A stretch of DNA of 64,000 bases from Campylobacter lari (GTDB lineage: Bacteria > Campylobacterota > Campylobacteria > Campylobacterales > Campylobacteraceae), in the NCBI RefSeq assembly GCF_900638335.1, contig NZ_LR134508.1, positions 434,001 to 498,000 of the forward strand. The letters are read 5' to 3'. Under the pieces are notes generated by a model. The model was not told the origin of the DNA, ran no database searches, and worked only from the letters and a program-made list of their open reading frames with translations. The translations under genes were made by a program, and so were the position numbers. Every line of letters begins with the position of its first letter. The stretch's first letter is position 1. Shown here piece after piece: positions 13,597-23,570 of this stretch.

Positions 13597-15134
<1,538 letters not shown>

Positions 15135-15311
15135 ATGAAAACACCTTTAAAAAATGCTACTAATACAAGTAATAATGAAATGGATTAAACTATTTATATG
15201 GTATCTACGCTTGCAAATAAACAAGAAAATGACATAGAAGATCTAAATTTTAAAAATTTATAGGCTTTGCAGAACGCCCTTAAAGTTTTTTACAAGAAGC
15301 AAGAGTTATAG
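15135..15311 (+). pseudogene. Small hypothetical gene broken by two in-frame stops
   Basis: Starting from the ATG at 15135, a single frame reads MKTPLKNATNTSNNEMD, stop, TIYMVSTLANKQENDIEDL NFKNL, stop, ALQNALKVFYKKQEL, and a final stop. Ignoring the internal TAA and TAG gives a 58-position product. All parts are in one frame, so the damage is point mutation rather than indel. The family is unknown. The region between it and the repressor gene (15312-15471) contains further stop-rich fragments. Confidence 0.45.
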
Positions 15312-15471
15312 TTTGAATTTTTGTTATTTTGTTTTTAAAAGAGTAAAATAAATTCTAAAACTTACAATTAAACACCAAGTCAGTAAAAGTATAAAAATTG
15401 GAATTGATTTTTAAAGTGCAATGGCTGATTCTAGGAAGATTACAAATTTTGGTGTGGAATAAAATTTTTAT

Positions 15472-16116
15472 TTATAATTTTTTATAATCAATTTTATATG
15501 CTCCAATAATTCTTCCTATGATTTTTAATTCTTTAGATTTTTTAATATCGATAATAGGATATTCTTTGTTATCACTAATTAAACACAAAGGTCTTTTTTT
15601 TAATCTTTTAATTAAAATTTCTTTTTGATATTCAACAATATATATACCACCTTCTATACTTGAATCATCTTTTTGAAATATAACCATTTCTCCTTCTTTT
15701 ATTGTGGGTTCCATACTATTTCCTATCATAGCGATAATACCTATTTTTAAAAATTCTTGCAAATTAAACATGCTGTTTAATTCATTTTTATTAAAAGGTA
15801 TGTTTTGCTTGATGATATTATTATTGTTGGTAAAATCTGACGAGAGATAATAGTTTTTATAAAATGGAATCAATATTGTATCTTTATTGTTTGTTTTCTC
15901 AGTTTGTTGTAAATTTTTATCAACTAATTTTATATAGTTATTTTGTTTATATTTTAGTTGATTAAACTTTAATATAGCATGTGAAGATATCCTTTTTCGT
16001 TGTCTCCATCCTATTGCTGTAGATTTCTTAAGACCCAATTTCTCAGCTACCATTTCTAAACTAGTAACATTAAAATAAAGTTTCATTTCTTCTACCAATG
16101 ATTTAAAATTTTCCAT
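15472..16116 (-). CDS. Phage-type repressor: N-terminal HTH plus S24/LexA-like domain
   Basis: A 214-residue protein. Residues ~3-50 form a CI-type helix-turn-helix (SLEMVAEKLGLKKSTAIGWR). Residues ~125-210 form an S24 peptidase-like domain with the catalytic-type Ser134 in GNSMEPTIKEGEMVI and Lys170 in ILIKRL. The linker (residues 60-125) contains no Ala-Gly or Cys-Gly pair, the usual self-cleavage bond, so classical RecA-triggered cleavage may not apply. It diverges from a small HTH-like gene across a large inverted repeat, the layout of a phage immunity region. No phage structural, lysis or integrase genes are near. It probably represses itself and the rightward asparaginase/permease unit. 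Confidence 0.85.
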   Translation of the reverse strand: MENFKSLVEEMKLYFNVTSLEMVAEKLGLKKSTAIGWRQRKRISSHAILKFNQLKYKQNNYIKLVDKNLQQTEKTNNKDTILIPFYKNYYLSSDFTNNNNIIKQNIPFNKNELNSMFNLQEFLKIGIIAMIGNSMEPTIKEGEMVIFQKDDSSIEGGIYIVEYQKEILIKRLKKRPLCLISDNKEYPIIDIKKSKELKIIGRIIGAYKIDYKKL

Positions 16117-16129
16117 TTATCACTTTCTA

Positions 16130-16182
16130 TATATAGTTATTTTATTTATAAATTATTGACATATAAATAAAATAACTATATA
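16130..16182. promoter_or_regulatory. 21-bp perfect inverted repeat, probable repressor operator
   Basis: Arms 16130-16150 and 16162-16182 are perfectly complementary and separated by 11 bp (AATTATTGACA). The arm core reads ATAGTTATTTTATTTATA. The right arm covers the spacer and part of the -10 of the rightward promoter. The left arm covers the mirror-image position (TATATA at 16128-16133) of a weaker leftward promoter for the repressor gene. This symmetry, lying between a repressor and a divergent small gene, is what a shared operator looks like. Binding itself is inferred. Confidence 0.75.
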
Positions 16183-16184
16183 AT
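16156..16184 (+). promoter_or_regulatory. Consensus sigma-70 promoter, TTGACA-17 bp-TATAAT
   Basis: TTGACA at 16156-16161, a 17-bp spacer, and TATAAT at 16179-16184 match the E. coli consensus at all twelve positions. Campylobacter promoters usually lack a recognisable -35, so this stands out. The predicted start near 16191 would give a leader of about 70 nt to the small gene. The 21-bp inverted repeat overlaps it. Confidence 0.85.
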
Positions 16185-16260
16185 GTATAAAAATTATTTC
16201 TAAATTGTATCTTAAAAAAAATCAATTTGAAATAAAAATTACAAATTGAAAGGATATGGG

Positions 16261-16461
16261 TTGTTAAAAAAATATTTTGAAGATAATAATATTAATCTTA
16301 AAAAGTTTGCTCAAAAATATGATTTGGACTACATGAGTCTTTTTAGAGTTGTTAATGGTTATTATTCTGAAAAATATATAGCTAAAGCAAATACTAAAGC
16401 TGTTTATCAAAAACTTTTAGAGCTCAATATTATTAATGAACTTCCTGATATTTTGAAATAA
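16261..16461 (+). CDS. Small Cro-like DNA-binding protein candidate
   Basis: A 66-residue basic protein starting with a TTG (LLKKYFEDNN), chosen because AAAGGA lies 6-7 nt upstream. A TTG 15 bp earlier has no ribosome site, and the nearby ATG is in another frame and stops at once. Residues ~10-40 (NLKKFAQKYDLDYMSLFRVV) read like a short helix-turn-helix. Position opposite a CI-like repressor suggests a Cro or antirepressor role. This is an inference from layout and the short motif only. It is first in the unit ahead of the asparaginase gene. Confidence 0.6.
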   Translation: MLKKYFEDNNINLKKFAQKYDLDYMSLFRVVNGYYSEKYIAKANTKAVYQKLLELNIINELPDILK

Positions 16462-16486
16462 ATAATGAGAATAAGTTAATTTTAAG

Positions 16487-16502
16487 TCAATTATATAATT
16501 GA
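16487..16502. promoter_or_regulatory. 16-bp perfect palindrome between the small gene and the asparaginase gene
   Basis: TCAATTATATAATTGA is a perfect palindrome without a T run. It may be a second operator or a weak attenuator before the asparaginase ribosome site (AAGGAGG at 16525-16531). Confidence 0.35.
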
Positions 16503-16536
16503 TTTACATTTAGCTTACTTTAAAAAGGAGGAGTTG

Positions 16537-17412
16537 ATGAAAATTAGTGTTTTAGGTATAGGCGGTACTATTTGTATGTTGAAAGATGAATCAGGAGGTG
16601 TTAGTCCTAAATTAAACGCAAAGGCATTGGTAGACAGTATTGGTTTAACAGAAAATATAAATATAGAAGCAAAAAGTATATTGGCAGTACCAAGTCCATC
16701 TTTAAAATTTGAAGATATTTTTGAAATCATAAAAGTAGCAAAGAATGAAATTAGAAATAATTCTAATGGTATAGTTGTTACTCAGGGTACTGATACATTA
16801 GAAGAAAGCGCATTTTTATTAAGCTTACTGTGGGATGAAGAAGTGCCTATGATTGTAACTGGAGCTATGAAAAATCCTAGTGAACTTGGGAGTGATGGGT
16901 CTAGTAATTTATATCAGTCAATTCTTGTTGCAAGCGATAAATCATCTCAAAAAAGAGGTGTTTTAGTTGTTTTTAACCATATAATATATCAACCAAGATT
17001 TTTGCATAAAAGTAATTCTTTTTCTCTTGATACTTTTGTGTCTATAAATGGTGGAAATATTGGATATATATATGAGAAACAAGTAAGATATATCAGCCCT
17101 ATTTATAAAAATAAAATTTACAACATTCCAGATAAAATAGATAAAAAAGTTGCAATTATACCTGCTTGTTTATCTGGAGATGATTATTTTTTAGATAAAT
17201 TATCTGTTTTTGATGGTTTGATAATAAATGGATTTGGGGCAGGTCATGTTTCTTTTGATTTTATTGAAAAAATAAAGCCATTAAGCTTAAATATACCTTG
17301 TGTTGTTACATCTAGAACAGGAAGTGGGCCAACTGCTTATAATACATATTCATATAAAGGTAGTGAAATAGACTTGCAAAATAATGGTCTTATTATGGGA
17401 AATTTTTTTTGA
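16537..17412 (+). CDS. L-asparaginase-family protein, C-terminus cut by a T8 frameshift
   Basis: As sequenced the product has 291 residues. The asparaginase/glutaminase fold is clear. The first catalytic Thr11 is in GIGGTI, and the second motif is TQGTDTLEE with Thr85 and Asp86. A conserved Lys lies in FLHKSNSFSLDTF, and the C-domain has TSRTGSGPTAYNTYSYKG. The frame ends just after a run of eight T (17403-17410). With seven T it would continue as DSLKARILLTVLLSNGFSKD to a stop at 17512, giving 324 residues, the normal family length with its terminal helices. So the gene is either off, a pseudogene or phase variable. The start has a very strong AAGGAGG site. No signal peptide is visible, suggesting a cytoplasmic enzyme. 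Confidence 0.82.
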   Translation: MKISVLGIGGTICMLKDESGGVSPKLNAKALVDSIGLTENINIEAKSILAVPSPSLKFEDIFEIIKVAKNEIRNNSNGIVVTQGTDTLEESAFLLSLLWDEEVPMIVTGAMKNPSELGSDGSSNLYQSILVASDKSSQKRGVLVVFNHIIYQPRFLHKSNSFSLDTFVSINGGNIGYIYEKQVRYISPIYKNKIYNIPDKIDKKVAIIPACLSGDDYFLDKLSVFDGLIINGFGAGHVSFDFIEKIKPLSLNIPCVVTSRTGSGPTAYNTYSYKGSEIDLQNNGLIMGNFF

Positions 17413-17525
17413 TAGTTTAAAAGCTAGAATACTATTAACCGTATTACTATCAAATGGCTTTAGTAAAGATGATATTTTTAAAGAATTTAATTCTTATTAT
17501 ATGTATTTTTAAGCAAGGAAAAAAT

Positions 17526-18794
17526 ATGAGCTATTTAGTTGTATCACAATTTTTTATGTGTTTTACGCTTCTTCTTATGGTAATTGGAAAAACTCCGTTG
17601 TATCTAACAGCAATTATTGGTACTACTATAAGTATTCTGATTGCTATGCTTGATTCAAATAATATTCTAATAAACACGCTTTTGCTTTCAGGGTTAAATC
17701 CTGTTATTTTAGATATGACAGGTATTTTGATGTTTATAGGGATAATGCAATCAAGTGGATTTATGGATGATATCATAAAAATTATTATCAAATTCGGTAG
17801 AAGAATTGGCGGTGGAGAGGGGATTGCTTCTGCTAGTGCTATATGTGCTGGAGTTATAGGAATGTTGACAGGTTTTACTCAGCCATCTGTAACTGCGGTA
17901 ATTACTGCTAAACCTTCGATATTGTTGGATATGAATCCAAATCATTCAGCGGCTATACATGGGCATGCTGGTCATCTTGGTAACTTTGGTGGTTTTACTC
18001 ATCCTACTCAAGTTGCAATTATTGGAGCTACTAATATTGGTTTTGGATTTATAAACATTTTTGCTATATTTATAGTTGTTTGTTTAATTTTATGCTTTGC
18101 TATAAGATCTAAAATATATAGAAAGAAGCATTTTGTTGTGATTGATAAAGAAAAGATGATGCATATTATAAAAGAAATGGAAAATCAAAAAAATCAATAT
18201 AGTTCCTATGTTATCTTTTTGCCTTTTATTGTTTTATTTGGTGGTTTTATTTTTGGTTATCCTATTTTTTTATTAGGAGTATTTTCTAGCATCTTAACAA
18301 TTGCACTTAGTGGGGTTAATATTTTTAATGCAGAAAAAAGTATGATAGATGGTGTTGGTAAAATAGCTATTCCTTTGGTTGCAACTATAACATTTTTATT
18401 TATGAGTGCTGTAATTAAAGAAATAGGACTAGCTAAAACTATTGCAAATATTTTTGAACCAATTTTAAATGTAGCTCCCGTTCAAGCAATGTTTATAGTT
18501 GCTGTTTTTGCTGGATTTGTCACACAAAGTTATGGAGCTAGCTCAGCTATCTTACTTCCATTTTTACAAGCTACTATGGAGGTTTGTACTTATAATTTTG
18601 CTTTAGCTTTTGTTGCGGCTGGTGGAGCTTCTATAGCACAATATTTTTTAACAGGTGGACCTATAGCTGCTTTATCAACAGTTATACCGCTTGTTGAAGG
18701 ATCAAATTTAAAGGATTTAAATAAATTTCAAAGACCTTCGCAACTTTTTGCTTTATTTTTGATTTTTATTATCTCTTTTTTTATTCAGTTTTAG
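17526..18794 (+). CDS. Inner-membrane permease, GntP/DcuC-like (ion transporter superfamily)
   Basis: A 422-residue protein with about 11-12 membrane helices. The start is the ATG at 17526, 5 nt after AAGGAA and 13 bp after the in-frame end of the asparaginase gene. An upstream in-frame ATG at 17454 lies inside the asparaginase 3' end and has no ribosome site. Two internal repeats each carry a polar turn (GHAGHLGNFGGFTHPTQV and TGGPIAALST), as in ion-coupled carboxylate carriers. The pairing with asparaginase suggests transport of asparagine, aspartate or a related dicarboxylate. The substrate is not shown by the sequence, and the family assignment is tentative. Confidence 0.65.
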   Translation: MSYLVVSQFFMCFTLLLMVIGKTPLYLTAIIGTTISILIAMLDSNNILINTLLLSGLNPVILDMTGILMFIGIMQSSGFMDDIIKIIIKFGRRIGGGEGIASASAICAGVIGMLTGFTQPSVTAVITAKPSILLDMNPNHSAAIHGHAGHLGNFGGFTHPTQVAIIGATNIGFGFINIFAIFIVVCLILCFAIRSKIYRKKHFVVIDKEKMMHIIKEMENQKNQYSSYVIFLPFIVLFGGFIFGYPIFLLGVFSSILTIALSGVNIFNAEKSMIDGVGKIAIPLVATITFLFMSAVIKEIGLAKTIANIFEPILNVAPVQAMFIVAVFAGFVTQSYGASSAILLPFLQATMEVCTYNFALAFVAAGGASIAQYFLTGGPIAALSTVIPLVEGSNLKDLNKFQRPSQLFALFLIFIISFFIQF

Positions 18795-21397: not shown

Positions 21398-21479
21398 ATA
21401 CAATAAATTTATTTTTAAATTAATAATTATTTATCATAATATTCCAGTTTTGAAAATTTATTTATTAAGAAAGGAAATA

Positions 21480-23570
21480 ATGAAAAAACATTGTTTATCG
21501 TTTTGTGTTGCTAGTTTTTTGGTCTGTAATGCTTTATCACAAGAAGTTTTATTGGATAGCTCCATAGTAAGTGCTTCTGGTTTTACTCAAGATATTAAAG
21601 AAGCCCCTGCTACTATAAATGTGATTAGCAAAAAAAAGATTTAGAAAGTAAGCCTTATAGAGATGTTGCCGAAGCTATTGCTGATATTCCTGGTGTGGAT
21701 TTATTTGCTAGTAAAGGAAAAACTGGATCTTATAATATTACCATGAGAGGTATTACTGGTTATACTTTAATTTTAATTGACGGACGCCATCAAGGGATAG
21801 GCGGAGAAGTAGGGCCTAATGGTTTTAATGAAATTTCAAATTCATTCCCACCTTCAATTTCTAGCATAGAAAGAATAGAAGTAATCAAAGGACCAATGAG
21901 TACTTTATATGGTTCTGAAGCTTTAGGTAGTGTTGTAAATATCATCACAAAAAAAGTAAGTGATAAATGGGAAACATCAGTTAGTTTGGATAGTATTTTT
22001 AATGCACATAAAGAATGGGGCAATACTTATTGGCACAAGTATATTCAAGCGGCCCGTTGATGAATGATCGCCTAGGATTAACCTTACGTTTTAGAGAGTT
22101 TTATAGAGAACAATCTAATATAAAATATAGAGATGGCGGTGGAAAAGAAATCGAAGCAAAAAAGGAACAAAGTCCTACAAAAGCTAATAATTTTAGTTTA
22201 GGAACTAGGTTAAATTACTTAGTAGATGATTATAATACTTTGATATTTGATATTGATTTTTCAAGAAATCATTATGATAACAAAAAAGGTCAACTAGGCA
22301 CATTAACAAAACCAACAGATAAAAATGATGGCTCTTTAACAGGTGGTTATACAGACACTATGCAAGTGGATAAGTTGGTAACTTATTTAAGTCATGAGGG
22401 TGTGTATGAAGATTTTTCGATTACTTCTACCTTGCAGTATAACCGCGTAAGTAACGATGGGCGTGAGGTGGTTGGCCAAGCAAATCAGCCATTTTTAGGG
22501 CAAAATAGAGATATAGTTGCTGAAGATATTATTTTAGATACAAGATCAGTTATACCTTTAGGCCAAAGTCATATTTTAAGCGTTGGTAGTGAATATAGAC
22601 TTGAAAAAATGCAAGATAAAATCGCTAATCCTACGAATTTTGATCAATATTTATTAGCTTTTTTTGCAAAAGATGAATATAGCATAAGAGATGATTTAAG
22701 ATTTACTTTTGGCGCAAGGTATAATCATCATGAAATTTTTGGAAATAATATTTCACCAAGGGCTTATTTGGTTTATAATCCTACCAGCGAACTTACTTTA
22801 AAAGGTGGCGTTTCAACGGGTTTTAGAACTCCATATGCTAATAGATTGATAGCTGGTGCTTATAATTATAGTGGACAGGGTAAATATCCTATGTATGGAA
22901 ATCCAAATCTAAAAGAAGAAACATCGCTTAATTATGAATTAGCTGCTGTTTATAATAATGATTTATTTTATATTTCAGCAACTGGCTTTTTAACCAATTT
23001 CAAAGATAAAATTTCTAGTCAAAAATTTAGCAAAGATAGTATGATTTCTGGTATTGGAAAATGTGAAGCTGATATATGTTATCAAACGATTAATCATGGT
23101 AAGGTTGAATATAAGGGTATAGAGCTTGGATCGGGGATCACTCCTATAGAACATTTAAATTTATATTTAGCTTATACTTATCTTGATAGTGAAGTAAAAG
23201 ATGCACAAGATAAGGCTGTGATAGGAAAGCCAGAAATTGATAGTTTAAAACACAATATCATGTTAAAAGCAAGTTATAATATTTTTAATAAATTCACTCC
23301 ATGGGTAAAGGTGAGTGGCAAATAGATCGTTATATGGGTGATACAAATATTAATAGAGAATACTATCAAGATGTCTTTTTAGCTTCTATGGGCGTGCGTT
23401 ATGATATCAATAAAAAATGGAGTATTAATGTAGTAATTTATAATCTTTTTGATAAAAGTTTTACAAATGATTGGGAATCTTATAAAAACAAAGGCGAAGA
23501 TACTTGGGTAAATACTTATAATCGTATAGAAGAGAGAAGAATTTATATTTCAATCAATGGCAGTTTTTAA
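21480..23570 (+). pseudogene. TonB-dependent ferric siderophore receptor (CfrA/CfrB-like), multiply frameshifted
   Basis: Joined across frames, the gene encodes about 695 residues. It has a signal peptide (MKKHCLSFCVASFLVCNALS) and a plug domain (DVAEAIADIPGVDLFASKG, IEVIKGPMSTLYGSEALG). A beta-barrel follows, ending in the expected C-terminal Phe (RIYISINGSF). From memory it resembles the Campylobacter ferric-enterobactin receptors. Breaks are an A8 run at 21630-21637 (stop at 21642), two small indels near 22033-22050, and loss of one base near 23313 in GTAAAGGTGAG. Each break has the correct continuation in another frame. With four separate lesions this is a dead gene rather than a switch. 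The start follows AAGAAAGGAAATA. Confidence 0.88.

Follow-up and report, generated by a model that had tools for sequence, protein, structure and literature searches.

In Streptococcus mutans, the CI/Cro-derived pair IrvR/IrvA resides in the host genome outside any prophage, and its S24 repressor is not governed by RecA (PMC7101444). FddR of Francisella, an S24 repressor co-opted from a phage, controls its own expression and that of divergently transcribed genes (PMC13148647). Here we describe a locus of Campylobacter lari in which a phage-type repressor gene (rep) and a small gene for a Mu-type Ner-like protein (ner) diverge from a common operator region, with genes for an asparaginase and a permease located 3' of ner. 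The resemblance to IrvR/IrvA lies in a phage-derived pair that is retained outside a prophage and includes an S24 repressor apparently free of RecA. However, IrvR retains its Ala-Gly site and undergoes constitutive self-cleavage (PMC7101444), whereas Rep lacks this site; moreover, the target of IrvR/IrvA is the mRNA of a surface protein, as opposed to the downstream catabolic unit and the Ner-type partner of the Campylobacter module. FddR is similar as a co-opted S24 repressor whose host lineage has no canonical LexA response, but it keeps the residues for RecA-dependent cleavage and answers DNA damage, and neither a Ner partner nor a metabolic target has been described for it (PMC13148647). 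The immunity regions of Mu-like phages (phage CAM-P21 and the prophages of Campylobacter genomes G003 and G024) share the divergent arrangement of an S24 repressor gene and a Ner-type gene, and those of the G003/G024 type share the leader of ner as well. In these phages, ner leads straight into the gene of the transposase MuA, whereas in the module asparaginase and permease stand in place of the transposase and all genes after it. A literature search returned nothing on this module and no report of a Ner-type switch placed on a catabolic unit.

The window, a stretch of 64,000 nucleotides (positions 434,001 to 498,000 of contig NZ_LR134508.1), contains, in this order, an rRNA operon, a tandem repeat, decayed phage tail genes, rep, ner, asparaginase and permease (Table 1). 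An earlier note on this DNA had described an S24 repressor gene and a small HTH gene diverging from a shared operator region, with asparaginase and permease genes to the right, and all four open reading frames were recovered where it had placed them; the rep-ner gap is 144 bp and the ner-asparaginase gap 75 bp. The statement in that note that no phage genes follow holds to the right of the switch but not to the left, where relics of tail-protein and tape-measure genes occupy positions 14701-15470. A search for a Mu-like prophage at the locus detected no transposase genes (MuA/MuB) and, of the structural genes, just the truncated tail relics.

The same four genes, again with no intact prophage at the locus, are present in 5 of 49 Campylobacter genomes (G000, which is the window genome, G021, G007, G011 and G033), so that the search for this module outside prophages, which the earlier note had named as a check, came out in its favor. 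An intact prophage at this place in close relatives, which would have counted against the proposal, is absent; the relatives carry the same module. The junctions between ner and asparaginase and between the tape-measure relic and rep are the same in all five carriers. To the left of rep, the phage tail genes are broken or cut short, while rep and ner are open in each of these genomes.

Table 1. Features of the module and its left flank (window coordinates)
Feature	Position	Strand	Description	Basis
tailU relic	14701..14835	-	Mu-like phage tail gene	
tailE relic	15098..15314	+	Mu-like phage tail gene, in-frame stops	
Tape-measure gene relic	15383..15470	+	abuts the 3' end of rep; boundaries approximate	comparison with L078-L081
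rep	15472..16116	-	HTH + S24 repressor, 214 aa, without Ala-Gly cleavage site	profile matches, dN/dS 0.08-0.19
Operator O3	15931..15951	-	inside rep	exact motif; invariance across the five genomes
Operator O1	16130..16150	-	left arm of 21-bp inverted repeat, in front of rep	
ner promoter	16156..16184	+	TTGACA-17-TATAAT; 29 bp identical in C. jejuni phage contig	
Operator O2	16162..16182	+	right arm of inverted repeat, between -35 and -10 of ner promoter	
ner leader	16190..16252	+	conserved with Mu-like prophages; probable Ner sites	conservation
ner	16261..16461	+	Mu-type Ner-like HTH protein, 66 aa, TTG start	profile matches, dN/dS 0.03-0.08
Palindrome, 46 bp	16472..16517	.	conserved, between ner and asparaginase; putative second operator or promoter	
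Asparaginase gene	16537..17412	+	no evident signal peptide; frame shortened by frameshift in T run; 324-325 aa in relatives	
Permease gene	17526..18794	+	422 aa, no family above cut-off, weak CitMHS match	dN/dS 0.05-0.12

Rep matches the Pfam family Peptidase_S24 (4e-17) and a PHROG family of transcriptional repressors (3e-24, residues 16-213); its AlphaFold model, with a pLDDT of 42, is of insufficient quality overall, with the N-terminal helices at moderate confidence. Judged by its similarity to phage repressors, Rep is a chimera of two types. Residues 1-62 are 69% identical (42/61) to the repressor encoded by L120, a phage contig matching the CJIE4 phages of C. jejuni, and 33% identical to the repressor of the Mu-like G003 prophage, whereas for residues 63-214 the corresponding values are 29% and 55%. 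The catalytic Ser and Lys are kept in all five module repressors (motifs GNSMEP and IKRL/VKRI). By contrast, the Ala-Gly (or Cys-Gly) cleavage site preceding the S24 domain is missing from all five, whereas 21 of the 22 other S24 homologues in the loci compared keep the Ala-Gly site; the L120 repressor, with its ASAGFG motif, also differs from Rep in this respect. Because Rep lacks the Ala-Gly site, classical RecA-triggered induction is not expected, and induction of Rep by DNA damage appears unlikely. The absence of LexA has been reported for Campylobacter (PMC2390758), and a search of the module genomes with a LexA profile yielded no match reaching its cut-off.

The region between rep and ner contains a perfect 21-bp inverted repeat (16130-16182), the arms of which are the predicted operators O1 and O2. 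The motif, TATAAAYAAAATAACTATATA, occurs at three sites in the whole window genome when up to 3 mismatches are allowed; all three (O3, O1 and O2) are exact, and all are at the module. In a 20-bp form with 1 mismatch allowed, there are exactly three sites in each of the five module genomes, while 42 of the 44 non-module genomes have none and the other two have a single inexact site each. Over the five genomes, the spacing is 199-200 bp between O3 and O1 and 32-33 bp between O1 and O2, the invariant run at O3, which no other in rep exceeds, is exactly 21 nt long, and a similar site is found at the same codons in L120. This three-operator layout would fit repression by cooperative or looped binding of Rep. 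The ner promoter string is found exactly in only 8 places of the 1.54-Mb genome, and the region has no other strong promoter match; a perfect -35 box is unusual for Campylobacter, where most promoters show a periodic A/T pattern instead (PMC3656092).

The 29-bp operator-promoter segment, TTGACATATAAATAAAATAACTATATAAT, is identical in the module and in the phage contig L120. Given that the L120 repressor combines a similar N-terminus and a different body with the same operator, the operator can be assigned to Rep independently, and to judge from this match, operator and promoter have followed the DNA-binding domain of the repressor. Since the operator tracks that domain, the control region would be a CJIE4-type operator joined to a Mu-type Ner. 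Among 2.9 million viral contigs, the operator was detected in one phage-like contig with two sites and in two singletons, and nowhere else; the scan of viral contigs for Rep gave no match and that for Ner gave one Mu-like contig.

The small protein matches PHROG 925, an HTH DNA-binding protein (6e-10), and weakly, below the cut-off of that family, gp16 of BcepMu. It is 50% identical to the protein preceding the MuA transposase in the Mu-like Campylobacter phage CAM-P21 and about 78-85% identical to proteins encoded directly 5' of MuA in the prophages of G003, G024 and G001. The start is more likely the TTG codon at 16261, with AAAGGA upstream. The 63-bp leader of ner is conserved with the same three prophages although the repressor operators there differ. 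On account of the likeness to MuA-preceding proteins and of the leader kept with those prophages, we name the protein Ner-type; an identification as lambda Cro was considered and dropped in view of this similarity.

The third gene matches an asparaginase profile (4e-49). In the window genome only, its frame is about 34 codons short due to a frameshift in the T run at about 17400-17412, whereas all four other module genomes have the full frame; the earlier note had overlooked this frameshift, which may reflect a recent loss, tract length variation or a sequencing error. Compared with the phage collection, the asparaginase has only distant matches (up to 33% identity), several of them in records of bacterial appearance. 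The permease, with its start corrected to 17526, has a poor AlphaFold model (pLDDT 36), no match in PDB, plasmids or viral contigs, and no homologue in any of the 49 Campylobacter genomes besides the five module carriers. The substrate of the unit is probably asparagine or glutamine; asparagine use varies among C. jejuni strains (PMC3656092).

Homologues of the two genes lie side by side, in divergent orientation, in four genomes of three related genera of the Campylobacteraceae (L100-L103), with 45-49% identity for the asparaginase and about 55% for the permease. There, a GntR gene is located behind the asparaginase gene in L100 and L101, where it is among the listed open reading frames, and a GntR homologue occupies the corresponding place in the other two. 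Thus, these loci have divergent genes, GntR and no phage switch, whereas in the module both genes are co-directional behind ner. A homologue of this GntR protein was searched for in the five module genomes and found in none of them.

A search for a terminator in the ner-asparaginase gap was negative. The palindrome in this gap was considered as one and dropped; as RNA, it is only modestly more stable than shuffled sequences (z -1.36). Thus, an isolating terminator, which the earlier note would have taken, together with a separate promoter, as evidence against its proposal, was not detected, while such a promoter may lie within the conserved palindrome, which has a TATAAT-like core.

Purifying selection acts on all four module genes: dN/dS is as listed in Table 1 for rep, ner and permease and 0.11-0.23 for asparaginase, with dS reaching about 1. 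The lowest ratio is that of ner. The dS values of the module are comparable to or higher than those of host genes (0.14-0.54 for dnaX and 0.09-0.51 for tonB). The rep-ner gap has diverged by 2-13%, compared with 8-56% at synonymous sites of the genes, and between the most divergent pairs of genomes each of the two gaps has changed less than the synonymous sites. The module resembles domesticated phage repressor units such as IrvR/IrvA and FddR in that it stands outside an intact prophage and is kept in relatives under selection; like them, it would regulate host genes.

We estimate a probability of about 0.6 that the asparaginase/permease unit has come under the local control of a complete, captured phage lysogeny switch. 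In our best reading, a domesticated phage switch blind to the SOS response replaced GntR as the regulator of asparagine/glutamine use. Rep would occupy O1 and O2, probably joined by O3 through DNA looping, and so keep the strong ner promoter shut; given the position of O1 in front of rep, Rep would also regulate its own gene. When Rep falls, ner would be transcribed with read-through into asparaginase and permease, and Ner would then repress rep and, via the leader sites, its own promoter. Because Rep is uncleavable at the usual Ala-Gly site, the input should be other than RecA or DNA damage, for example, altered synthesis or stability of Rep, or some ligand. Against this reading stand the possible separate promoter of asparaginase at the palindrome, the shortened asparaginase frame of the window genome and the patchy distribution of the module. 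A more far-reaching version is possible but considerably more doubtful: a full toggle of repressor, Ner and both operator sets, derived from two phage types and released from SOS control by the loss of the cleavage site, would have displaced the GntR metabolite sensor and would now hold asparagine/glutamine use in a heritable on or off state in Campylobacter. Of the domesticated bistable switch put forward in the earlier note, the phage origin, the conservation outside an intact prophage, the linkage to asparaginase and permease, and the retention by selection are all upheld, with bistability belonging to this more doubtful version. On our reading, most steps of a regulatory domestication are legible at this locus: the phage genome was lost and the switch kept, the cleavage site was removed, the original regulator is gone, and the operators are confined to one locus. 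The module raises the questions of whether, in a bacterium that lacks LexA, a phage toggle can make cells differ in their metabolism, and which signal throws an S24 switch that is uncleavable at its usual site.

The main rival to this takeover is superinfection immunity: Rep would be kept as a non-inducible repressor that silences incoming CJIE4-like phages by binding their operators, with asparaginase and permease as mere neighbors that have their own promoter. This alternative is serious in view of the CJIE4-related phage contig L120 with its identical operator-promoter segment, and the loss of the cleavage site would favor such a role. Immunity would not, however, require ner and its leader, yet ner is the gene with the lowest dN/dS; the operator is also rare among viral contigs, and both the loss of GntR and the conserved gene order are left unexplained. 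We therefore regard it as rather unlikely, although Rep could serve both immunity and metabolism at once. Control of asparaginase and permease by another regulator acting at the palindrome, with the phage switch adding just leaky read-through, would account for the conservation and the TATAAT-like core of that element. This is still less probable, given that the GntR protein usual beside these genes elsewhere has no homologue here and that no strong promoter match other than that of ner is present.

The alternative offered in the earlier note, that the asparaginase genes merely landed beside a prophage remnant, which would then have no present function, agrees with the decayed tail genes adjoining the switch, the scarless lack of the module in close relatives, and the frameshifted asparaginase of the window genome. 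It is nevertheless highly improbable: rep and ner are open in five of five genomes with dN/dS of 0.03-0.19 while dS reaches about 1, and the operators are nearly invariant next to broken phage genes. Retention of the switch by selection thus argues for domestication rather than a chance neighborhood.

Two genomes, G034 and G025, lack the module and show no scar, despite being, by dnaX, as close to the window genome as the carriers are; its absence from equally close genomes implies that it was either lost or acquired horizontally. In G033, the block (L080, 9300-17500) lies behind another rRNA operon and adjoins the native, intact helicase gene. In G021, G007 and G033, the block begins on its left with a 5' fragment of a helicase gene, which in G033 belongs to a second helicase copy. 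Recombination between rRNA operons offers a likely route. Multiple independent origins were considered and rejected, as the shared junctions speak for one; with a single origin of the five modules, their co-occurrence provides no independent evidence of linkage.

The tandem repeat right after the rRNA operon (13598-14341) consists of 82.7 perfect copies of the 9-bp unit TTTTATTTC and yields a spurious 318-aa open reading frame of repeated FIS; G025 has a different 9-mer at the same place, TTCTTATAT, and G034 also has a repeat there. Further to the right in the window, at 21450-23570, a gene for a TonB-dependent receptor, identified from its translation, is split into four open reading frames in shifting frames and is probably a pseudogene. 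The window genome contains a second Mu-like prophage (L088, 10103-15451; about 838-843 kb of G000), which has its own repressor with a cleavage site and in which ner and MuA are frame-broken.
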